A DNA stretch of 64,000 nucleotides from Bacteroidales bacterium (GTDB lineage: Bacteria > Bacteroidota > Bacteroidia > Bacteroidales > UBA3824). Location: the NCBI GenBank assembly GCA_017412115.1, contig JAFPYR010000117.1:1-64000 (forward strand), written 5' to 3'. Shown piece after piece: positions 19,341 to 42,171 of this stretch (within the stretch, counting starts at the first letter, position 1; every line of letters begins with the position of its first letter). A program made the translations under genes and the position numbers. The notes beneath the pieces were generated by a model. That model was not told the DNA's origin, did no database searches, and saw only the letters and a program-made list of their open reading frames with translations.

Positions 19341-22300
19341 TTATTGAGAAAATTCCACAATTTTGGACTGTTCAACGTAATAAAGATAAGATTTTACGTT
19401 AGGAAAGCCCATTTGTTTGAGCAAAGCGGCATATTCCAAAATCTGGTCTTTGTATTGTTCGTGTTCGCTTCCGAATTTAAAATCTATCACAACCGTCTGA
19501 TTTTCATTTGACAAAACTCTGTCAGGAATCCTAATTGCGCCCTCCAAGGTAAGAAGTGCGCTTTCGGTATAAACTTTCGTCCAATCTCTTGAAAACCAAC
19601 CTTTTACTTGAGGATTTTTGAAAGCCTCTTCCAATTTTAAAGACAATTCCTTTTGTTGAGCCTCCGTTATTCTGCCTTGAAATTTCATCTCCGACAAAAC
19701 CTCAGGATAATCCTCCTGATATTCAATCCGCGAAAAAACATCGTGCATAAAAAGTCCGTAATTGATTTTTTCCTGCAAAAACGGATTTTGTTTTATGAAG
19801 AAATCCGCAAAATTAGATTTAACGGCAAGTTTTTCCTCCCACGGCGAATTTTTGAAAGAAGAAAGTTCAAAACCCTTGGATTTTATTTTAAAACCATCAA
19901 GTTCTATTTTGTGATTTTCGTCAATCAAAAGCGTTTTAGACTCCTCGTCGTAATAATCAGAAAGTTTAATAACAGGATTTTTTGTTTCTGCCACATCGTC
20001 TTGATTGATACACATATACAACAAATCTCCGACAGTGGAAATTTTTTGTTTGTCTTGAGAATAAGGCGCGTAAATATGCAACTGATCAACGGCACGGGTT
20101 AAAGCCACGTACAAAAGATTGAGCGAATCAACATACATATTCCGTTTTTCTTCCAAATAATAATCCTTGAAATAAGATTTCAACAAATCTTTTGAATATT
20201 TCACGGGCAAGATTGGCAAAGATTTAAACTTACTCTCTTTAGGACATTTCACCCAAATATAATTTGATCTCAAACCGCTTGTTTCTTCCATATCCCAATC
20301 GCAAAAAGGCACAAACTGTATGCTGAAATCCAAACCTTTGGATTTGTGAACGGTCATAACATTTACAGCGTCTTGACTTTCAGATGGTTGCACGGCGGTT
20401 TTAACGCCTAATTTGTCCCACCAATCAACAAAACGGTTCAAATCCGAGGAATACATCTGCGTAAAACTCAAAATGCAATCCTCAAAAGTTCTTAAATATT
20501 CCGCATCGCCCGAAAATCTTTCAAGCGAATAAAAAGCTATAATTTTTTCTACTAAATCAAAAAGCGGTAAATCCGAATAAGTTTCAGCGATTCTGTCAAA
20601 ACCCTCCGGCATAAAATTTTTGTCCGCATTTACGGCTTTAAAAATCTCATCATCCTGAATATCAAGCGAATTAATAAGACAATAAGTCCTCATCATTTCG
20701 GCTTTTGCAAAACAATCCTCAGGATTGAGAATATATTTCATGGTATTTACAACAAGTTTTACAGGCAAAGAATTAGCGATATAAAGCGAATCGCCGGAGA
20801 TAACGTCATAACCTTCAGCTCCTGAAACTTGCCTCTGATACTGCAAAAGAAATTTTACGATAAGAGCCGCCTCGGTTTTCTTTCTGACCAAAACACAGAT
20901 TTTTTTAGGTTTAACCCCTAACTTCAAAAGCGAATCAATTTCGTTTGCCATTCGGTTAAGAGCCTTTGTCTGAAACTCACTTGCCGGCAAATCGGGAATC
21001 AACAAATTTTCGTTATCTGAGGTGGCCTCTTCCTCGTCTTCTGATTCGGACTTCTTTTTGCCTTTAACAGGAATAAAAACCACTTGAGTTTTTCCACCGC
21101 TACGGTCTTTGTTTTGAGGAAGATTTTGATAAGAATCCGAATAAATATCTTCCAAAAGCGAAAAATCAAGTTCCTCGCCCGAAAAATTTTTAAGCATTCT
21201 GACAGCCTTAGAGAAAACGGCGTCGTTAAAATCAACGATATTTTTTTTAGAACGCCAATTAACGTCAAGAGTTTTAATATTGATGCTCTCTTTTCCTAAT
21301 TGCGACTGAACACCAGAATTCAAAAGCGACCAATCCCCTCCCCTAAAACGGTAAACGGATTGTTTGACATCGCCGACAATCATATTATTAAAACCCTGAG
21401 CTAAAGCGTTTTCAATCAGCGGTTTGAAACAGTTCCACTGAAAAAGCGAGGTATCTTGAAATTCGTCGATAAAAATATGGTCGAACTTGTTTCCGACCCT
21501 TTCAAAAATAAACGGCGCATCGTTTCCGGCGATAACGGAATTCAAAAAAGCCGGTCCGTCCGAAATCATTATCGTGCGGTTTTCTTTTCGGTATTCGGGC
21601 AAAAGTCTTGCAATATCACCGATTAACATAAACGCATAAAAATCTTTTCGGATAATTTTAGCGGTAATAAAATCCAAAGCGGAATTTTCGATAAGTGAAA
21701 CCGCCTCCTCCAAAAGCGGAATAAGTTTTTTTTGCAAAACGGGAACCGCATCTTTTTGTATAAGAGTCGGCTTTTTAGTGAGCCAATTATCGGATTCTAA
21801 CATCTTTTGAACGGTTTTTGAAACTTCGGCACCGTCCAATTTTTTCGTTAAAAAGTTGCAACAAATCTCAACATCACGACCAAATTCCTTCGGAGAATTA
21901 ATACCATAAAGGTTTGAAATATTTTCGATTTCCTCAGCCGCACGTTTTGAAATATCAGAGGTTTTTTCAAGATAATCGCTATAAATCAAATTGACTAATT
22001 CCAAAGATTTTTTGAAATAATCCTTTTTTTCGTCGTCAGGCATTTCCACCTGAATTTTTTCCAAATCCTTGAACCTCTCGGTAAAAATCAATTTCGCTAC
22101 TTCCTCTACCTGAGCCCTAAAATCCCAATTCTGACCGTCCTTAACGTTTTTTTCAGCCATCTGGAGCAGTTGATTTCTAAGGGAAGTATCCTCGTCAGAA
22201 AGTTTAAAAAGCATATCAATCAAATCCGACAAAACCACACTTTCATCAGTCTGCGTCGAAAAGCCGGAATTGATGTTAATATCATAACAAAAAGCTCTTA

Positions 22301-22688
22301 AAATTCTTTGAACAAAAGAATCGATGGTTTTAAGATTGAAATCGGAATAATTATGCAAAACGGCGCTCAAAATTTGCTTTGCCCTCAAAGAAACTTTTTG
22401 AGGCGTAAACTGAGGATATTTTTTGCAAATATCTTCAACATAAACGCTTTGAGAATTTTTAGAAAGGTTTTCCAACTCTCTTAAAATTCTTTCTTTCATT
22501 TCGCCCGCCGCCTTATTCGTAAAAGTTACGGCAAGAATCCTCGAAAATGCAGCCGTATCATTGAAAATTTCAGAAGAATCCGTGCTGATTTTATCAGGAG
22601 CTTGACTCGCAAAAGCCTCAGAAATATATTCTCCTGTCAAAACGTGCGTTTTTCCGCTGCCCGCCGAGGCCTTGTAAATGTTAAGCAT
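19341..22688 (-). CDS. UvrD/RecB-like helicase-nuclease (AddA-like)
   Basis: A 1,115-residue superfamily 1 helicase with a C-terminal nuclease. Walker A is ASAGSGKT (8-15); other helicase motifs are ILAVTFTNKAAGEMKERI, FDHIFIDEFQDTS, GDVKQSVYRFRGGD, NVMTVHKSKGLDF and LLYVALTRA. Near the C-terminus AIRIPDRVL and VVIDFKFG give the PD-(D/E)XK nuclease core. This is the layout of AddA/RecB enzymes that resect double-strand breaks. The normal partner AddB is not adjacent on either side, so it may be elsewhere. I see no four-Cys Fe-S cluster here (AddB carries it). It starts 29 bases after the UbiB-like gene. Confidence 0.88.
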   Translation of the reverse strand: MLNIYKASAGSGKTHVLTGEYISEAFASQAPDKISTDSSEIFNDTAAFSRILAVTFTNKAAGEMKERILRELENLSKNSQSVYVEDICKKYPQFTPQKVSLRAKQILSAVLHNYSDFNLKTIDSFVQRILRAFCYDININSGFSTQTDESVVLSDLIDMLFKLSDEDTSLRNQLLQMAEKNVKDGQNWDFRAQVEEVAKLIFTERFKDLEKIQVEMPDDEKKDYFKKSLELVNLIYSDYLEKTSDISKRAAEEIENISNLYGINSPKEFGRDVEICCNFLTKKLDGAEVSKTVQKMLESDNWLTKKPTLIQKDAVPVLQKKLIPLLEEAVSLIENSALDFITAKIIRKDFYAFMLIGDIARLLPEYRKENRTIMISDGPAFLNSVIAGNDAPFIFERVGNKFDHIFIDEFQDTSLFQWNCFKPLIENALAQGFNNMIVGDVKQSVYRFRGGDWSLLNSGVQSQLGKESINIKTLDVNWRSKKNIVDFNDAVFSKAVRMLKNFSGEELDFSLLEDIYSDSYQNLPQNKDRSGGKTQVVFIPVKGKKKSESEDEEEATSDNENLLIPDLPASEFQTKALNRMANEIDSLLKLGVKPKKICVLVRKKTEAALIVKFLLQYQRQVSGAEGYDVISGDSLYIANSLPVKLVVNTMKYILNPEDCFAKAEMMRTYCLINSLDIQDDEIFKAVNADKNFMPEGFDRIAETYSDLPLFDLVEKIIAFYSLERFSGDAEYLRTFEDCILSFTQMYSSDLNRFVDWWDKLGVKTAVQPSESQDAVNVMTVHKSKGLDFSIQFVPFCDWDMEETSGLRSNYIWVKCPKESKFKSLPILPVKYSKDLLKSYFKDYYLEEKRNMYVDSLNLLYVALTRAVDQLHIYAPYSQDKQKISTVGDLLYMCINQDDVAETKNPVIKLSDYYDEESKTLLIDENHKIELDGFKIKSKGFELSSFKNSPWEEKLAVKSNFADFFIKQNPFLQEKINYGLFMHDVFSRIEYQEDYPEVLSEMKFQGRITEAQQKELSLKLEEAFKNPQVKGWFSRDWTKVYTESALLTLEGAIRIPDRVLSNENQTVVIDFKFGSEHEQYKDQILEYAALLKQMGFPNVKSYLYYVEQSKIVEFSQ

Positions 22689-22717: not shown

Positions 22718-24424
22718 TTAATCCTGTTCAGTATCGTTTTTCTCCTCGACCCTGAATCTCGTACCTAAAGCATAAACTATCAGCAAGACTGTTAAAAACG
22801 AAGCTGCGGCAAAACCTATCAAGCTGAAAAGCGGCACTGAAAATACTTTGTACGAATCTCCCGAAAATACCATTATCACCGTTGATGACAAAATCAAAAC
22901 CACGATAAACAACGTGTAAATCAATTTGTTAGCCACAACGTCAATTCTTCTGATAAAATGTCTGAAATCCGTAATATTAAGATTTCCCGAAAGTTCGCCG
23001 CGCCGGATTTTCTTTAAGATAACGGAAAGTTCCAAAGGCGAATTTTCCAAAAAATCCCCCGCTTGTGAAAGATTTTGCGTTAAATGATTTTTGAACCTTT
23101 CAGGCGACATTCTCTCCAACTGAAGTTTTTTGCCGTAAGGTTTGAAAAATTCCGAAATCAAACAAGTCGGTGTAATGCTAAGGGCAATATCTTCGGCATT
23201 TGACAAAGCTGTAAAAGCGGTAAAAACCACGCCCGGGACTGCGATTTTGTGTTTGTAAGCAATCCTCATAATCCCGAACGAAAATTCCCGCATATAATGT
23301 TCTGAAGATTCCATAAAATACAGATTATCAACTAAATACTGTACATCATCCTTAAAAGCGCGATAATCATAAATTTCGGAATCATAAGAGATTTTTCTAA
23401 GACTGTTGGCAAGGACTCTGGAATTTTGAGTCGTAAGAGCGGCAACAATATCGCAAATAAGATTTCTCTGAACCGTTGTTAAAAGCCTTGTAGAGCCAAA
23501 ATCCCAAAACAAAACTCTTCCGTCCGGCATTATTCTAACCGCTCCGTCAGAGAGTTGTCCGACAAAAAGTCCCGTATTAAGCATGCCCGAAATATAAGAT
23601 TTCAAAAACGTGTCCGAAACTTTTCTATAGTCAAGTCCCCATGACAAAAATTCACGGGCATCGGTTATCGAAACGGAATTGTAATAAGTTGTTACTAAAG
23701 TAGATTGCGTAGAATACCTGGAAAAAACCTGAGGCACTACAAAGTCAGAGATTTGTTTATAAGCCTTTGCAAAACGCTTAATCATTTCCGCCTCACGGGT
23801 TAAGTCGAATTTTTTCATAAGCAGTTTTTCAAAAGCATTAATAATTCCTAAAGGATCGTCAATACCTTTGTTTTTAAGATAACCGGAAAAAAGAAAGGCA
23901 AGACGTTTTAGAAGTTTTATATCAGAAACGGCATTATCCAAGGCACCAGGCAAAAGGATTTTGATAGCAACATCCTCACCCGTCAAAAGTTTTGCTCTGA
24001 AAGTTCTCGAATAACCCTCCTGAATAAAACTATAATTATCAAAATACGAAAAAGTTTTTTCAACGCTGAAATTCGTTGATTTCTCAAAAATCTCTACCGC
24101 CGTACTTTTCAAAAAGGCTTCGGTTTTGAATTCCAAATTATAAAATTCCGAAATCAATTCCTGCGGCAAAATATCCGGTCTTGAACACAAAAATTTTGCA
24201 AAATTTACAGCCGTCGGACCGAGCTCCTGAGTTGCTAACCTTACTCTCTGCCAAATATTCAGAGTAGTATCAACCTCAAATCCTAATTTACCGGCTCTGC
24301 CTTTTAGAATTTTATCAAAAGCCTTACCCGAGGCAAGGGGCGCGATTCCGTATTTCAACAATATGGTAAGCGCATTGTTAAGGCTGTCAAGTATTTTAGG
24401 ATTTTTCGGCGATTTTAAAGACAT
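22718..24424 (-). CDS. UbiB/AarF (ABC1) fold protein with degenerate catalytic motifs
   Basis: A 568-residue protein with the ABC1/UbiB kinase-like fold and two C-terminal membrane helices (about 505-550). Several blocks are clear: ELGPTAVNFAKFLCSRPDILP, VAIKILLPG with the ATP-binding Lys, DLTREAEMIKRF and WDFGS. Key motifs are altered. The KxGQ motif is NFAK, the Ala-rich loop is replaced by EGYSRTF, and the catalytic-loop block usually HADPHPGN reads VGQLSDGA, so the catalytic Asp and Asn are missing. It may be a pseudokinase or use a different mechanism. The two phasin-like genes lie directly upstream in the operon; UbiB-like genes next to phasins are seen in other bacteria too. A role in quinone or lipid handling is possible. 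Confidence 0.85.
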   Translation of the reverse strand: MSLKSPKNPKILDSLNNALTILLKYGIAPLASGKAFDKILKGRAGKLGFEVDTTLNIWQRVRLATQELGPTAVNFAKFLCSRPDILPQELISEFYNLEFKTEAFLKSTAVEIFEKSTNFSVEKTFSYFDNYSFIQEGYSRTFRAKLLTGEDVAIKILLPGALDNAVSDIKLLKRLAFLFSGYLKNKGIDDPLGIINAFEKLLMKKFDLTREAEMIKRFAKAYKQISDFVVPQVFSRYSTQSTLVTTYYNSVSITDAREFLSWGLDYRKVSDTFLKSYISGMLNTGLFVGQLSDGAVRIMPDGRVLFWDFGSTRLLTTVQRNLICDIVAALTTQNSRVLANSLRKISYDSEIYDYRAFKDDVQYLVDNLYFMESSEHYMREFSFGIMRIAYKHKIAVPGVVFTAFTALSNAEDIALSITPTCLISEFFKPYGKKLQLERMSPERFKNHLTQNLSQAGDFLENSPLELSVILKKIRRGELSGNLNITDFRHFIRRIDVVANKLIYTLFIVVLILSSTVIMVFSGDSYKVFSVPLFSLIGFAAASFLTVLLIVYALGTRFRVEEKNDTEQD

Positions 24425-24430
24425 CGGATT

Positions 24431-24718
24431 TTATAGTTTTGTAAGTTTTTCCAAAATAGTTACCCTTCTTTTGAGAGCCGATATTTCTTCAGGGGTGGCA
24501 ATATCCATTTTTTCGTACATCTTGCGGATAAGCTCGTAAACGGTTTTTTCAAAATCCTGAGATTTATCGAAAATACCGTTTTTTATGTTTTCAAAAATAG
24601 ACGAACCCCTACTGTCGCTTATTTTGTTGCTTTCAACAAGTTTGTCAAAAGTTTTTTTAACGACAGAAACAGCCTCCTCTGCAAATTTATTGCCGACAGA
24701 TGACAACATATCAACCAT
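24431..24718 (-). CDS. Phasin-like coiled-coil protein 1
   Basis: A 95-residue, charged, mostly helical protein resembling the phasin/PhaF-PhaI group: amphipathic helix (GNKFAEEAVSVVKKTFDKLV), a middle region with alternating charge, and an ending ATPEEISALKRRVTILEKL that looks like a short coiled coil. It ends 6 bases before the UbiB-like gene. It is a shorter paralogue of the next protein and shares the TPEE/TKSE-E-LK-R-LEKL tail. Phasins coat polyester or lipid surfaces, but no PHA synthase gene is seen here. Confidence 0.75.
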   Translation of the reverse strand: MVDMLSSVGNKFAEEAVSVVKKTFDKLVESNKISDSRGSSIFENIKNGIFDKSQDFEKTVYELIRKMYEKMDIATPEEISALKRRVTILEKLTKL

Positions 24719-24756
24719 AATCAGATTTTTTCTCTTTATGTTTTTAGTTTTTCTCC

Positions 24757-25101
24757 TTAATCCAAACCGGCAACTATTTTTTCAAGGGCTTCAATTCTTT
24801 TTTTGAGTTCCTCGACCTCCGATTTAGTAGCAGGACGTATTTTTTGCAAAGCATCGTTAATCGTAGTACGGATTTTTGACTCGATGTCTTTGGTTTTATT
24901 ATCTATGTTTGAAGAAAATTCGTCTACGATTTTTTTGCCTTCCTCTTTAGAAATTTTCTTCTCTCCGATAAGTTCTTTAACGGCGTTTTCTACTCTTTCT
25001 TTAGCATTAACAGCCATTCCTACACCTTGATAAAGGATTTTTTTGAGCAAATCATTAACGGTATCACCGTTTTGTTTGTTATCTTTTTCTTCTTCTGCCA
25101 T
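24757..25101 (-). CDS. Phasin-like coiled-coil protein 2
   Basis: A 115-residue protein of the phasin-like group (COG3937 type): LLKKILYQGVGMAVNAKERVEN, then KKISKEEGKKIVDEF, and a C-terminal coiled coil ATKSEVEELKKRIEALEKIV. It begins the cluster of phasin-like, phasin-like and UbiB-like genes, 38 bases before its paralogue. The two paralogues share the layout and the tail, indicating local duplication. Function here is unknown; membrane or granule surface association is an inference. Confidence 0.8.
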   Translation of the reverse strand: MAEEEKDNKQNGDTVNDLLKKILYQGVGMAVNAKERVENAVKELIGEKKISKEEGKKIVDEFSSNIDNKTKDIESKIRTTINDALQKIRPATKSEVEELKKRIEALEKIVAGLD

Positions 25102-25195
25102 GTTAATTAAAAATTTTAATAGTTTGTATTGACCAAAAGTAATTGTTTTTTTCTATTTCTGCAACTTTTTTTACTAAAAAAACTCTTTTTTTTCG

Positions 25196-25771
25196 TTAAT
25201 TGCAGCCCATCCAACCGTAAAGCGTTGAAATCAAAGAATATACGGTTTTAAAAACCAAATAACCCGTAAAAGAAATCAAAAGAATTCCCACCACGGATTT
25301 TATGGCACTTCGTTTTACCTCGCTGATAATTTCCTTATCGTCTTCCACGTAACCCACTATAAGTCTGTAGTTTTTGGCGTAAGACTTATGAAAAAAGTCC
25401 AACAAATCACCCACGTATGGAATAAGACCTATTAAAGCGTCCAAAAAAGTATTATAAAGTACGGCTAAGGTCAAGGCTAAGGATTTTATCTTGAAAATAG
25501 AAACGTACAAAAAAGGCAAAGTAGCTAGGGAGGTTATCAAATCGCCGATTGCCGGCAAAAAAAATCCCGCAATACCGTCCAAATAATATTTATCAAAAAG
25601 CGTTGAAATGCCTTTGACTAATTTATAAGACGGCTCTTTTTCGAGTTTTTCTCTCGCCTGATTTTTTTTTTGACGACGCAGTTCCTCATTCTGAACCGAC
25701 AAATCTATCTGAGACTTTTCCTCTTCTTTAGCAAGACCTAAATCTCGCCTTACATCATCTCTCCTACCCAT
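25196..25771 (-). CDS. DUF4112 membrane protein
   Basis: About 191 residues. A charged N-terminal region of some 55 residues (MGRRDDVRRDLGLAKEEEK) precedes a DUF4112 domain with its signature LDALIGLIPYVGDLLDFFHKS, and two or three hydrophobic segments, the last near the C-terminus. I start at the ATG at 25771, one base after the stop of the coiled-coil gene; a TTG at 25783 overlaps that gene. No function is known for DUF4112. It belongs to the same strand run as the phasin-like and UbiB-like genes. Confidence 0.82.
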   Translation of the reverse strand: MGRRDDVRRDLGLAKEEEKSQIDLSVQNEELRRQKKNQAREKLEKEPSYKLVKGISTLFDKYYLDGIAGFFLPAIGDLITSLATLPFLYVSIFKIKSLALTLAVLYNTFLDALIGLIPYVGDLLDFFHKSYAKNYRLIVGYVEDDKEIISEVKRSAIKSVVGILLISFTGYLVFKTVYSLISTLYGWMGCN

Positions 25772-25772
25772 T

Positions 25773-27809
25773 CTAAATTTCAATAATTTTTTCTCCGCTC
25801 AAAAAATCGTCCCAATCCTTGGAAGTAAAACCTTCTTTGTCCTTACCCAAAAGCTTAATCAAAGAATTTTTCAAAGCCTCGTTGTCGGGAGCGGTATTAA
25901 TTTTTTTAGCGATTTCCATCAAAGCAAGATGTTGATTATCAATTCCTTTAACATTTTCTTCAAAGGTTGCTTTAATTCTTTGGAATTCATTTTCGTAATA
26001 TTCCTCACTCAAGGCATGATTGATTTTCATAGCCTCTAACTGAGCCAAAGCATTGCAAACCTCAAAACCTTTTTGCAAAACCTCAGCACCTTCCTTGACT
26101 TGAGAAATTCTTGAAGAAATTTCGCCTTTGAACTTATCAAGCGCATCAGAAATATTTTCAGGCAGTTTGTATTCTTTAAATTCCTTAATATCGACCTTGC
26201 GGATAAGTCTGTCTTCAAGGCTTGCCAAAGAAATATCTTTTGCAATTTGAAGCAGTTTTATAATATCATCCAAACGGCTGACAACCTTTGCTTTAACTTT
26301 AGGATCAGCAGAAATCAGAGCTGAAAGTTTTTCGGAAATTTCCTTATGTTGAGCCTTCAAAATATGATAACGCTTAGAACTTTCCTCAAATTCGCGACGT
26401 TGACTCTCGAGCTCGTCAGTATCGATTTTAATATCGACCATCAAATCCTCGTATTTGGAAATTACGGGTTCGCAATTTTTTACCCAATCGTAAATATCAC
26501 GTTCGTATTGTTTCTTTTTGGAGCCGAAACTAAATGCGTTTTGAAGTCCCGATGGTGCTTCGGGTTTTGATTTTTTAGCCTCATCGTATTGTTTTTCAAG
26601 GCTTTTCAGAGTTTCTTTCACAGTGTTGATATGACCCGAATAATAATTGACGTTCATCTGCGCATCGGAGATTTTTCTCTCCAAGGAATGTAGTTCGTCA
26701 AGAATTTCATCACGTTGATTTTTAAGTTCTTGAGCCTCTTTAGTGGAATAAATGTCATTGATAAGCTGTTTCAATTCGCTGTCAAAAACCTTAGGCGAGG
26801 CTTTTGCAAAAATTTCGGATTTCGGAATATAAACATCGTTTAAGATTTTATAAATTTCAAAAAGCCTTACTTCATCGGTTTTAATCGTTGCAGCATCTTT
26901 GCTGACAGCCATTTTCAACTCCTGAACCTCTTTTCTTAAAGCGGTGGTCTGTCCTGAAAGTTTTACGTAATGCGAAAGCATATTAACACCGGCAATAATA
27001 AGTCCGACTCTTTTGTCTTGTTGTTTTCCGAATTGTGTTGCAGATAGTTTCAAAGCCGAAGAAAAATTATCGGAAACCTCGCCAGCCAAAACAGAACATT
27101 TGCCAAAAATAGAATTATAACACAATTCGATATTCTTTAGCATCTTATCCGTATCCAAAAATTCAATAGAATCAAAATCAAACATTTCGGGCATTGAGGC
27201 TTTAATCTTCTCGCCGAAAATATCCGTTAAAGCCGAGGCATAACGGCGGTACATATCCAAAGCGTGTCCTCTTAACTGCACAAAATCTTTAGTCAAATTT
27301 ACAACAGCAGATTTTGCATTAGAATAATTTTCCGTTAAAAGCGAATATTTTTTGAAAATTTGTCCCGCCTCACTTTGAATTTTAGAAACCGCAGCAGAGC
27401 CTGAAACCGTATTCAAAAGGTCTGAAACTTGTTGAACCAATTCCAATTTTGTCTTTTCGGTATCAAAATTTTCCACGCCGCCGAATTTATCGGAGGTGTT
27501 TTCAAGACGTTCTTTCAAAACCGAAAAAACATCATCGGTTTTGCCGTTTTCTATCAAAGAGGGGATTTTGTACTCATCAATAAGAGTGGCAGTTTTGTCG
27601 TTATTGACAAAAGTTTTGAAGATTTCTTTATCGGAGGATTTTTGAAAACATTCCCACACGAACTTTGAAATTTCGGGAGAATCGTTTTCAACCCCCATTT
27701 TTTTTAATTCGTAAGCCAAATCAGAACGTGTCAAAACTGTATTTTCTGCCGCGTTCTGAACGGCTAATTCGTTGATTTTATTAAATATTTCCTGAATATT
27801 CATAGCCAT
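25773..27809 (-). CDS. Large coiled-coil protein of unknown function
   Basis: A 678-residue soluble protein without signal peptide or membrane helix. Long heptad-rich stretches lie at about 280-310, 350-410 (NQRDEILDELHSLERKISDA) and 430-500, and the C-terminal part is also helical. I do not recognise a domain. A short start begins with MAMNIQEIFNKINELA; a second ATG two codons later is equally possible. It opens the operon that continues with DUF4112, the phasin-like pair and the UbiB-like protein. A scaffold or structural role near a membrane is an inference from its partners only. Confidence 0.72.
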   Translation of the reverse strand: MAMNIQEIFNKINELAVQNAAENTVLTRSDLAYELKKMGVENDSPEISKFVWECFQKSSDKEIFKTFVNNDKTATLIDEYKIPSLIENGKTDDVFSVLKERLENTSDKFGGVENFDTEKTKLELVQQVSDLLNTVSGSAAVSKIQSEAGQIFKKYSLLTENYSNAKSAVVNLTKDFVQLRGHALDMYRRYASALTDIFGEKIKASMPEMFDFDSIEFLDTDKMLKNIELCYNSIFGKCSVLAGEVSDNFSSALKLSATQFGKQQDKRVGLIIAGVNMLSHYVKLSGQTTALRKEVQELKMAVSKDAATIKTDEVRLFEIYKILNDVYIPKSEIFAKASPKVFDSELKQLINDIYSTKEAQELKNQRDEILDELHSLERKISDAQMNVNYYSGHINTVKETLKSLEKQYDEAKKSKPEAPSGLQNAFSFGSKKKQYERDIYDWVKNCEPVISKYEDLMVDIKIDTDELESQRREFEESSKRYHILKAQHKEISEKLSALISADPKVKAKVVSRLDDIIKLLQIAKDISLASLEDRLIRKVDIKEFKEYKLPENISDALDKFKGEISSRISQVKEGAEVLQKGFEVCNALAQLEAMKINHALSEEYYENEFQRIKATFEENVKGIDNQHLALMEIAKKINTAPDNEALKNSLIKLLGKDKEGFTSKDWDDFLSGEKIIEI

Positions 27810-38389: not shown

Positions 38390-39700
38390 TTATTTTTTTA
38401 ATGTTAAAACTTTGACCATCGTAGGTTTCTCGTCAGAAATTTTCTCATTAGAAATTTGATAAGTTTTTTGCAAAAAAATATCCAACCGCTCTGAAGATTT
38501 CCAAAGGTCAATATCCACAGCGGGCTCCCAAGCCTGATAACTATCCTTAGTTAAATTCACAAGTTTAAAATTAAGCGGCTTGTCAGCCTCAAGTTTTGAA
38601 TAATACAAAGAAACCTTTGAGCCTAAATCCTCATCTCTAAAAAGAAAATAAATCATCTTTTTACCAACGAGAATCTTCGGACGCGAAATCGGAATGTAAA
38701 GCGTTCCCATGCCCGACAACGAAAAATCCTCCTTACGGTTTCCCAAGGTTATATCACGAAATTTTTCACCGTCGTAATAGATTATGTGATAATTAGTTAT
38801 AGAATCTTTCCTAAAATAAGTCGCAATATAAGGCCGTCCGTTAATGTCCGAGGCCATAGAAGTCTGATTGATAAAATTGGAATTCCTTTCAATTTCCATA
38901 ATAGGCTTTGTATCAACACGTCTGAAATAATTTCCTAACGTATCGCCGCGCTCATTAAGCCAAGTTTTTCCGTAATCTTTGGAACAAATATAATACAAAT
39001 TTTTATTGGTTTGAGGATCGTAAGCATTCTCCCGCCAAAGCCATGAAACATGAATTATATCACGGTTATCAACATAAATCTGCCAATAAGGCCGCAAAAA
39101 AATCTGATTTTCAAATATATTATTCCAAACTCTAATCCATTTTCCCTCTTCAACCAAATAACGGTTCATAACAATATTATTGTTGCAACGGTAAACGAAA
39201 AACAAATCCCCGTTCTTAAAGCTATAAAATTCGGGATATGTTACTTTTTTTTCCGTCTCAAAAATATCATCGGGAATCATACTCTGTAATTTTCCCAATT
39301 CAAGACTAAAAGGAGCAACTGATTTACAGTATTTTAAAGGCGAATTATGATGATCGAACGCCACGTGTAAATATCCTTTGCCGTCCAAAACAATGCTTAT
39401 AACATTGTGAGCATCAGTTTTGTTAAAAATCCTATATCTGCTTCTTTTTAAGACAAAACGTTCCTGTTTCTTGTTTTTCGGTTTCAAACAACGTTTGCCC
39501 AAAACCAAATAACCTTCAGGATCGTAAAACGCAATAAACTGAGTATCACCGAGTGAGGTTAAAGCGTTGCAACGGAAAATCGTTGTATTAACCGAAGTTT
39601 TGCTAAAAGCCGAATCCACTTCCACAATTTCCGTCTTAAACTGCGCTTTGGCTGTCAATGAAAACCAAAAGAAAAAAAACAAAAATAAACCAAATCTCAT
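38390..39700 (-). CDS. Secreted BNR-repeat protein (BNR-4 type)
   Basis: A 436-residue exported protein (signal ending LTAKAQ). It resembles the BNR-4 family, which contains polysaccharide lyases and hydrolases with a seven-bladed propeller: the blocks FIAFYDPEGYLVLGKR, DAHNVISIVLDGKGYLHVAFDHHNSPLKY and IIHVSWLWRENAYD are typical. Candidate catalytic His and Tyr residues lie in the second block, but I cannot say whether it is a lyase. Its ATG overlaps the stop of the T9SS protease gene (ATGA), so both are made together and probably both go to the cell surface. Confidence 0.78.
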   Translation of the reverse strand: MRFGLFLFFFFWFSLTAKAQFKTEIVEVDSAFSKTSVNTTIFRCNALTSLGDTQFIAFYDPEGYLVLGKRCLKPKNKKQERFVLKRSRYRIFNKTDAHNVISIVLDGKGYLHVAFDHHNSPLKYCKSVAPFSLELGKLQSMIPDDIFETEKKVTYPEFYSFKNGDLFFVYRCNNNIVMNRYLVEEGKWIRVWNNIFENQIFLRPYWQIYVDNRDIIHVSWLWRENAYDPQTNKNLYYICSKDYGKTWLNERGDTLGNYFRRVDTKPIMEIERNSNFINQTSMASDINGRPYIATYFRKDSITNYHIIYYDGEKFRDITLGNRKEDFSLSGMGTLYIPISRPKILVGKKMIYFLFRDEDLGSKVSLYYSKLEADKPLNFKLVNLTKDSYQAWEPAVDIDLWKSSERLDIFLQKTYQISNEKISDEKPTMVKVLTLKK

Positions 39701-42171
39701 TTAACGATGAATTTTTTAATTTCTGTTTTGTCAGAATCACTGATTTTAAAAAGATAAATTCCTGATTTTAAACCTGTTATTAAAAATTCATTAGCAATTC
39801 CGGGATTAATTTCGGGAATTTTAACCATCAAAAGCCTTTTGCCCGAAATATCAAAAATCTCTACAAAAGCATTTTTGAATTTTTCAGAAGCTTTGTAATA
39901 AATTTTTTCAGCAGTAGGATTAGGATAAAGCACTGAAATATAATTAGTTTCAGGCTTTAAATCGCTAACGGGAGTTTTCTTTACGAAATCAAAGGTTACG
40001 GCTTTGCCTGCACTAGAAACGCCGCCGTCAGCATAAACGTTTTTAACATAAAAAGTATACGAAAGCCCGTTTTGAACCTGATACGTAAAAGTTTTGATTT
40101 GCGCATCAGAAATTTCCTCAACCAATTCCGAATTGCAATAAACCATATAACCCGAAACCTCAACATCCTCATACGAACTTTGGTCTTTGTCGATTTTAAT
40201 ATTATCCAAAAGCAAAGCCGAAGCCTCACCAAAAGGAGTTATATTGTTGAAATTAAAATACAAAACATTTCCTGACAATTCTTTCAAACTGAAATTGTAT
40301 TGAGTCCATTCTTGAGGAACAGAAATTTCTTCAAAAACTTGATAATTAGATGGTTTCGTATTTTTAGAGATTTTCAGAACAGAATTTCCGCCTACGGATT
40401 TCGCATAAAAACTCAAAATATCGGAAGAAGAAACAGCAACTTTAGGCAAGGTTAAATAATCGTTTGTTGAATTTTTCACCGCTGTAAAACTTGCCGCACA
40501 TTTCTCGCCGTCAAAAGCCTTAAAATCACCGTCTTGAGAATCCAATAAAACCCAAGCCGAAGGACTGCCTTTTTCTGCGTAACTGATTGGAACATCAACA
40601 GTCTGATAATTATCCATATCAACATTTGCCAAAAATAAATGCTCAATTGAATCCGTATTTTCAAAACCCTCAAAATCGCTTTCAAAAGTACTCGTATTAG
40701 CGGTCTTCCAAGTAAGCGTTACGGCTGTGGTATCTTCATTAACAATGCCAAAAACATCTGATTTTCTATAATTTGCGCTCAAATTATAAGGGTCGTAAAA
40801 ATCCAATTCCGTCAAATTGGTTTCTCCGACGAGCCAATATTTCAACTGATTTTCCTTCTCCGCTCCACACTCCCAAGCCTTTGAAAACATTTGGAAATAA
40901 TCGTCAGCAGGTTTTGTACACGAAGCATAACCACCTGACAAATCACCGATTAACTGCTTTTGGGAATTGAAAAGTCCTGAACCCGAAGAACCCGTTTCGG
41001 TTGTTCCTATTTTCCACAACGCAATATGCCAATGACAATTTTTATCATAATTAACCTCCTCATCATCTTCGTTAGGATAAGAATCCTTGTAAGGCTCTGA
41101 TTTTGAAATAGATATTTTTTTATAAGAGCCTTGCGGATGATGAATACAAAACACATTATCCAAATTATCGGTTTCATTATTCGTAAAACCGGCATAAAAA
41201 GGTTCATAACTTTTAGGAGGAATTTCGCTGAGTTTCATCAACGTAAAATCCATAGAAGGAACCTCTAAAGTTTCTAATTTCGTTTTGTATTCGTTTTTGG
41301 TTGCCGTTGCGCACAAAGTAGCTCCCTCAATTGTCTGAGGTTTAACCGTTTCGTTGCCGCCGCAGACTTTTTTCTCATAATTAAAATATGCAGTCACAGT
41401 TTTAGCCGCCTCTTCGTCGCACAAACAATGCGCCGCCGTCAAAACAAAAGGCGTTCCGTCGTTTTTATAATTGTTGATAAGTGTTCCGCTACAAAGATAT
41501 AAATCATTACCTTCTTCAAAAGTATATTTTATAACAGCGTGTTTAATATCTTGATAATCAGCACCTTCATCACAAATTATATCGACTTCGTTGTCGCAAG
41601 TAGAGGCTCCTAACTTGAGCAAAGTTTTAATACCGCCGTTTAAATCGGAAAATCCGTAATAAACTTTTGAAATCTTAAAACTTTTCTGATTAACGCCTTT
41701 TGGAACAAAAAGTTCGATTATAACCTCGGAATTTTCTATCTGACGCGTTCTTAAATCATTGGTACTCTTGTTGTTATAAGATGTTATAGCTCCCAAAACG
41801 TCTAAAGAATCAGCACCGTAAAAATACAATTCCGCATTTTCCTCCAAATGAAAATCCTCCAAATAAAATCCCAATGAAACAGAATTTTCCGAAGTTATTT
41901 TCAAGGAATAAATCTCGCCAAAGGAAACGGAATATTTTGTTGCCTTTTCAAAAAAATCAATATCCGTTTTTATAATTTTAGCAAAATAAAGACGGTTGTT
42001 ATCCTTCAAACTGCTTTTTTTGGAAATTGCCGGAGCAGGAATATTCTCAGAAGAAATTTCCATAGAATTTCCCTTCAACGAAAAACTTTTCGGAAGTTTT
42101 TCGTCGGTAATTTGCGCTTTCAGCATACCGACACTAAAAAGCATAATCAATGTGTATATTATTCTTTTCAT
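39697..42171 (-). CDS. Secreted trypsin-like serine protease with T9SS sorting domain
   Basis: An 824-residue protein with a Sec signal (MLKAQ), an N-terminal propeptide-like region, a trypsin-fold domain similar to lysyl endopeptidase (His in LTAAHC, Asp in MDFTLMKL, nucleophile Ser in TGSSGSGLF), then adhesin-like or fibronectin-like domains (about 480-730) and a C-terminal type IX secretion sorting domain (LYPNPTAEK ... FDISGKRLLMVKI ... LKSGIYLFKI). It is predicted to be exported through T9SS and attached to or released from the surface. The following BNR gene overlaps by 4 bases. Sequence shows no inactivation. Confidence 0.87.
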   Translation of the reverse strand: MKRIIYTLIMLFSVGMLKAQITDEKLPKSFSLKGNSMEISSENIPAPAISKKSSLKDNNRLYFAKIIKTDIDFFEKATKYSVSFGEIYSLKITSENSVSLGFYLEDFHLEENAELYFYGADSLDVLGAITSYNNKSTNDLRTRQIENSEVIIELFVPKGVNQKSFKISKVYYGFSDLNGGIKTLLKLGASTCDNEVDIICDEGADYQDIKHAVIKYTFEEGNDLYLCSGTLINNYKNDGTPFVLTAAHCLCDEEAAKTVTAYFNYEKKVCGGNETVKPQTIEGATLCATATKNEYKTKLETLEVPSMDFTLMKLSEIPPKSYEPFYAGFTNNETDNLDNVFCIHHPQGSYKKISISKSEPYKDSYPNEDDEEVNYDKNCHWHIALWKIGTTETGSSGSGLFNSQKQLIGDLSGGYASCTKPADDYFQMFSKAWECGAEKENQLKYWLVGETNLTELDFYDPYNLSANYRKSDVFGIVNEDTTAVTLTWKTANTSTFESDFEGFENTDSIEHLFLANVDMDNYQTVDVPISYAEKGSPSAWVLLDSQDGDFKAFDGEKCAASFTAVKNSTNDYLTLPKVAVSSSDILSFYAKSVGGNSVLKISKNTKPSNYQVFEEISVPQEWTQYNFSLKELSGNVLYFNFNNITPFGEASALLLDNIKIDKDQSSYEDVEVSGYMVYCNSELVEEISDAQIKTFTYQVQNGLSYTFYVKNVYADGGVSSAGKAVTFDFVKKTPVSDLKPETNYISVLYPNPTAEKIYYKASEKFKNAFVEIFDISGKRLLMVKIPEINPGIANEFLITGLKSGIYLFKISDSDKTEIKKFIVK

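Follow-up and report, generated by a model that had tools for sequence, protein, structure and literature searches.

The region examined here lies at positions 22,718 to 27,809 of the window, by which we mean the whole 64,000-nucleotide stretch analysed (contig JAFPYR010000117.1 of a Bacteroidales bacterium, assembly GCA_017412115.1), and holds five consecutive genes, for a 678-residue coiled-coil protein, a DUF4112 protein, two phasin-like proteins (phasins A and B) and a UbiB-like protein. Comparison with the other genomes of the genus, which are Bacteroidales metagenome-assembled genomes labelled nearly all as rumen or other herbivore gut, resolves the five genes into two modules: phasin A – phasin B – UbiB-like is conserved as a unit, while the 678-residue gene and DUF4112 form a separate module. 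Judged from its sequence, the UbiB-like protein is a UbiB/ABC1 homologue by descent and a pseudokinase rather than an active member of the family. The phasin-UbiB core is conserved and apparently new to the literature in the papers searched, among which we found none connecting phasin and UbiB.

Two modules within the genus

The UbiB-like gene was found in 17 of the 18 genus genomes, and the same 17 carry two phasin matches. The order phasin A – phasin B – UbiB-like is maintained on one strand on every genus contig long enough to hold it, and phasin B adjoins the UbiB-like gene in every genus genome that has phasin B; in one genome (G013) a contig break cuts off phasin A from the other two genes. 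The 678-residue gene is present in 11 of the 18 genomes and absent from seven, and is directly followed by DUF4112 in all 11. In nine of these 11 genomes the 678-residue gene and the UbiB-like gene are on different contigs, and in G009 both are tens of kilobases inside their separate contigs. The two modules stand side by side only in the window and in its 97%-identical sibling RGIG6989.

The preliminary description had read the five genes as a single operon with short gaps. All five open reading frames (ORFs) are indeed open on the minus strand at their claimed places, and the gaps between them, from 5' to 3', are −11, 94, 38 and 6 bp, the first becoming +1 if DUF4112 starts not at its listed TTG but at the likelier in-frame ATG at 25771. 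The ratio of nonsynonymous to synonymous substitution rates (dN/dS) lies well under 1 for each of the five genes, marking them as more than chance ORFs. The short gaps stand, but the five-gene operon as a conserved arrangement is rejected; gene order is conserved for the phasin-UbiB unit and, for the five genes together, is shared by the window and its sibling only. A complex of all five proteins, including DUF4112 and the coiled-coil protein, would accord with the short one-strand gaps in these two genomes, yet it is very unlikely given the separate contigs in nine of 11 genomes, the lack of any match to the 678-residue gene in another six genus genomes carrying the UbiB-like gene, and a promoter-like site between the two halves.

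That site is in the 94-bp gap upstream of phasin A, where the window has GTTG-N20-TACTTTTG, matching the Bacteroidota-type promoter at 9 of 10 positions, a score equalled by 35 of 1000 dinucleotide shuffles. Matches of the same type occur upstream of the 678-residue gene in all four genomes tested, one of them perfect (equalled by 1 of 1000 shuffles). Because other genus members vary in these matches, the sites lend weak support to separate transcripts of the two modules, with the phasin-UbiB unit under a putative promoter of its own.

The two-gene module itself (25196–27809) was found in only part of the genus among the genomes searched, and the 678-residue protein gave a poor AlphaFold2 model (mean predicted local distance difference test score, pLDDT, 64) with no match in the PDB.

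The UbiB-like and phasin-like proteins

The ABC1 domain (PF03109) of the UbiB-like protein scores 119.7 bits, well over the cut-off of 22.9, while the score against the ubiquinone UbiB equivalog TIGR01982 (183.3 bits) falls short of that profile's cut-off of 487.6. Transmembrane-like windows mark two C-terminal helices (approximately residues 493–525 and 526–557). Across 16 genus sequences the HAD Asp, the PGN Asn and the Ala of the Ala-loop are each found in none and the KxGQ Lys in one, whereas the VAIK Lys, the EA-motif Glu and the DFG Asp are retained in all 16; every catalytic residue examined is kept in 33 of 33 other Bacteroidota UbiBs. The loss of catalytic motifs proposed for the window's protein is thus borne out as a feature of its genus (16 of 16 sequences, as opposed to 0 of 33 elsewhere). 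In a phylogenetic tree the genus pseudokinases form a single clade nested within the phasin-linked active UbiBs, on a long stem of approximately 1.0–1.3 changes per site. Apart from the UbiB-like protein, the window genome has no full-length ABC1 match, two other matches being partial.

In close pairs of genomes the dN/dS of the UbiB-like gene is 0.05–0.14 (0.08 against the sibling), similar to that of the neighbouring helicase, so the protein is under constraint. In one genome (G007) the gene (L011, G007:C57:7248-8910) is split over two overlapping frames, by either a frameshift or an assembly error. That the UbiB-like gene is a decaying, functionless remnant, as the missing motifs, the long stem and the two frames in G007 might suggest, is scarcely credible against this low dN/dS, the retention of the gene in 17 of 18 genomes and three invariant pocket residues, and the dN/dS selection test rejects it.

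The two phasin-like proteins are 26% identical to each other, in agreement with their earlier description as paralogues. Against the phasin family PF05597 (cut-off 28.8 bits) phasin A scores 29.3 bits and phasin B 22.0. Phasin A ends in a C-terminal coiled-coil-like segment (VEELKKRIEALEKIVAGL), and its AlphaFold2 model has three helices (mean pLDDT 76) with no PDB match at E 0.001; phasin matches among the PDB sequences were dismissed as coiled-coil noise. Scores of the two proteins against UbiK/BMFP (PF04380) are 15.7 and 14.0 bits (E 0.009–0.07), below the cut-off of 37.2.

The poly(hydroxyalkanoate) (PHA) synthase domain PhaC_N (PF07167) was not found in any of 39 genomes searched, 18 of them from the genus, while the Caulobacter control was matched, so that the absence of PHA synthase noted for the window extends to the whole genus (0 of 18) and PHA granules are unlikely. 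A role as PHA granule coat, to which the family name of PF05597 points, is accordingly rejected as highly improbable.

Phasin-UbiB pairing beyond the genus

Phasin matches were collected first with PF05597 and a single-protein search. In G033, from another family of the order, two phasins are directly upstream of an intact UbiB. One family of the same class contributes three more genomes with one or more phasins immediately upstream of UbiB, and more distant parts of the phylum contribute two. The unit of the window's genus is a branch of this broader Bacteroidota arrangement, with genes for one or two phasin-like helical proteins immediately before that of a long-form UbiB (ABC1) protein bearing two C-terminal membrane helices and, in some families, an HSL-type alpha/beta hydrolase gene in front. 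Among 395 genomes sampled from the phylum, all six with a strong match to our phasin profile (E < 1e-15) have UbiB as the next gene downstream, and five of these six genomes do not belong to the genus. A survey of 393 Bacteroidales genomes gave 39 with a phasin match at E < 1e-10, and in 26 of the 38 loci examined UbiB is downstream on the same strand (one with a single intervening gene). Where they are long enough across the motifs, the UbiBs among the 32 newly examined loci all have the canonical residues.

Genes for lipid enzymes recur next to these loci. An HSL-type alpha/beta hydrolase (PF07859, E approximately 1e-50 to 1e-58) is directly upstream on the same strand in seven genomes (G665, G493, G571, G466, G662, G033 and G425, the last from another family of the class). 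The phasin-UbiB pair of G108 neighbours a LolA-like protein and, by our reading of the sequence, a large MMPL/RND-type exporter and an acyltransferase. G471 has a phasin pair that lacks UbiB and is followed by a gene of AMP-binding, acyl-CoA-ligase type, and G574 has a 602-residue gene of equal length and position. Such tandem phasin-like genes without UbiB, followed by a 602-residue gene, were seen at L210:1413-3221 (AMP-binding, acyl-CoA-ligase-type) and L212:1298-3106.

Beyond the UbiB-like gene of the window is a RecB/AddA-like helicase-nuclease (Table 1). The two adjoin only in one subclade, half of the genus, and the helicase-nuclease is probably unrelated to the phasin-UbiB unit. Elsewhere in the window (39697–42171) an 824-residue protein carries a type IX secretion sorting domain (TIGR04183), from which we infer that the organism probably has a type IX secretion system.

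Table 1. Features of the region (window coordinates) and plasmid loci used for comparison.
Feature	Position	Strand	Remarks
RecB/AddA-like helicase-nuclease	19341..22688	minus	29 bp past the UbiB-like gene
UbiB/ABC1-family pseudokinase	22718..24424	minus	568 residues; PF03109 E 1.5e-34; catalytic residues lost
Phasin B, phasin-like helical protein	24431..24718	minus	95 residues; PF05597 E 1.8e-4, under Pfam cut-off
Phasin A, phasin-like helical protein	24757..25101	minus	114 residues; PF05597 E 1e-6, barely above cut-off
A+T-rich gap (94 bp) with Bacteroidota-type promoter match	25102..25195	minus	possible phasin-UbiB promoter
DUF4112 membrane protein	25196..25783	minus	PF13430 E 1e-13; outside conserved phasin-UbiB unit
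678-residue soluble coiled-coil protein	25773..27809	minus	no real family; outside conserved phasin-UbiB unit
DUF6781-UbiB plasmid loci	L169:2336-4671, L171:1070-3429, L173:1794-4159, L175:1830-4159		

Proposed function and parallels with known systems

Our leading interpretation, which we hold tentatively and at somewhat less than even probability, is that phasin-like coiled coils partner UbiB in a module at a membrane or lipid surface, the UbiB-like protein having a scaffold or nucleotide-sensing role in the genus of the window. The phasin-like proteins would form coiled-coil oligomers that coat either the inner membrane or small bodies of neutral or prenyl lipid, and the UbiB protein, itself anchored in the membrane, would be recruited or regulated by them. 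In the relatives an ATP-hydrolysing UbiB might then power the movement of hydrophobic lipids at that surface, or access to them (the lipids being acyl or isoprenoid, with menaquinone as one possibility), while in the window's genus the UbiB-like protein may act within the same complex as a nucleotide sensor or a purely structural scaffold. The surface complex is suggested by analogy: quinone intermediates and phospholipids stimulate the ATPase activity of COQ8 (PMC7263595), UbiJ-UbiK is a helical membrane interface of quinone synthesis in E. coli (PMC9499169), and plant plastoglobules, which are lipid droplets, carry ABC1 kinases with fibrillin coats (PMC12587418). The recurrence of lipid-enzyme neighbours in relatives fits such a role, so that of the membrane or granule surface complex envisaged in the preliminary description the membrane or lipid-surface role survives, but the membership of the coiled-coil protein and DUF4112 does not.

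Several observations weigh against this interpretation. The matches to the phasin family are weak, around the Pfam cut-off, and within the genus of the window the hydrolase is not adjacent and the flanking genes vary. As 12 of the 38 Bacteroidales phasin loci have no neighbouring UbiB, and many long Bacteroidota UbiBs have no phasin, the pairing is common but not obligatory. The search profile was moreover made from UbiB-linked members and favours finding such members, and we therefore claim no rates outside this subfamily.

A more specific but rather unlikely alternative is a menaquinone-handling complex, with the phasins as counterpart of UbiJ-UbiK and the UbiB-like protein aiding quinone synthesis or delivery. 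MqnC is at or near its curated cut-off in most genus genomes and UbiA-family prenyltransferases are present, while MenD of the classical menaquinone pathway is over its cut-off in none of them; the genus therefore likely makes menaquinone by the futalosine route. Besides these markers, the link of the UbiB family to quinones and the weak BMFP (UbiK-type) matches of the phasins favour such a complex, but four members of the order (G021, G027, G029 and G034) have MqnC and no UbiB-like match, and the recurring neighbours are of hydrolase and acyl-CoA-ligase type rather than quinone genes. A MenD-like protein was also observed (G000:C80:3389-4600; 175 bits, MenD cut-off 244), in only four of the 18 genus genomes and besides MqnC.

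Known phasins are able to act like chaperones, and this ability, together with the variable flanking genes within the genus, would suit a stress or envelope-integrity module without specific lipids, in which the phasins serve as chaperone-like amphipathic coats. The lipid-enzyme neighbours that recur in relatives argue otherwise, and we consider this reading less probable still.

A partly similar arrangement exists on four alphaproteobacterial plasmids (Microvirga, Roseibium, Shinella and Rhodobacter), where the helical-looking DUF6781 (PF20572) directly precedes a long-form UbiB; eight other records examined have no DUF6781 before UbiB. A phasin search on plasmids gave no match, and we found no paper on the DUF6781-UbiB pairing. 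Homology between DUF6781 and the phasins was not detected (hhalign probability 0.6%), and any shared theme would therefore be convergent. It is a speculative extension, and one we regard as doubtful, that long-form UbiBs of bacteria have helical proteins of phasin type as their dedicated partners (phasins in Bacteroidota, DUF6781 in Alphaproteobacteria, UbiJ-UbiK in Gammaproteobacteria), with the complex of one Bacteroidales genus still working with a pseudokinase. If true, UbiB would have a part in lipid handling that depends on partners but not on catalysis. The function of UbiB/COQ8 is a long-standing question to which a compact bacterial module of two to four genes, which at times includes a lipase-type hydrolase, offers candidate partners, and a natural pseudokinase branch, under selection alongside these same partners, could allow catalytic roles to be told apart from non-catalytic ones; relatives with an intact kinase and the herbivore-gut pseudokinase genus together would make a simple bacterial system for studying UbiB-family function.

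With the long form of UbiB/ABC1/COQ8 (PF03109, TIGR01982) the protein shares fold family, length, membrane helices, the VAIK Lys and the DFG Asp, but the window's genus lacks KxGQ, the Ala-rich loop, the HAD Asp and the PGN Asn and scores far below the TIGR01982 cut-off. Like phasins of PF05597/TIGR01837, the two partner candidates are small helical proteins with a coiled-coil-like C-terminal end and a weak profile match; they differ in scores at or below the cut-offs, in a genome without PHA synthase and in the linkage of their genes to UbiB. The E. coli UbiJ-UbiK proteins, too, are small, helical, coiled-coil and membrane-associated and tied to UbiB function, whereas here no SCP2 domain was seen, the BMFP similarity is sub-threshold and no ubiquinone pathway is apparent. 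The alphaproteobacterial pair resembles the Bacteroidota unit in having the gene for a helical protein directly upstream of a long-form UbiB, and is unlike it in that DUF6781 has no detectable homology to these phasins. The plant plastoglobule, in which ABC1 kinases occur alongside lipid-droplet coat proteins, is an analogy only, and we claim no homology between its fibrillins and the phasins.

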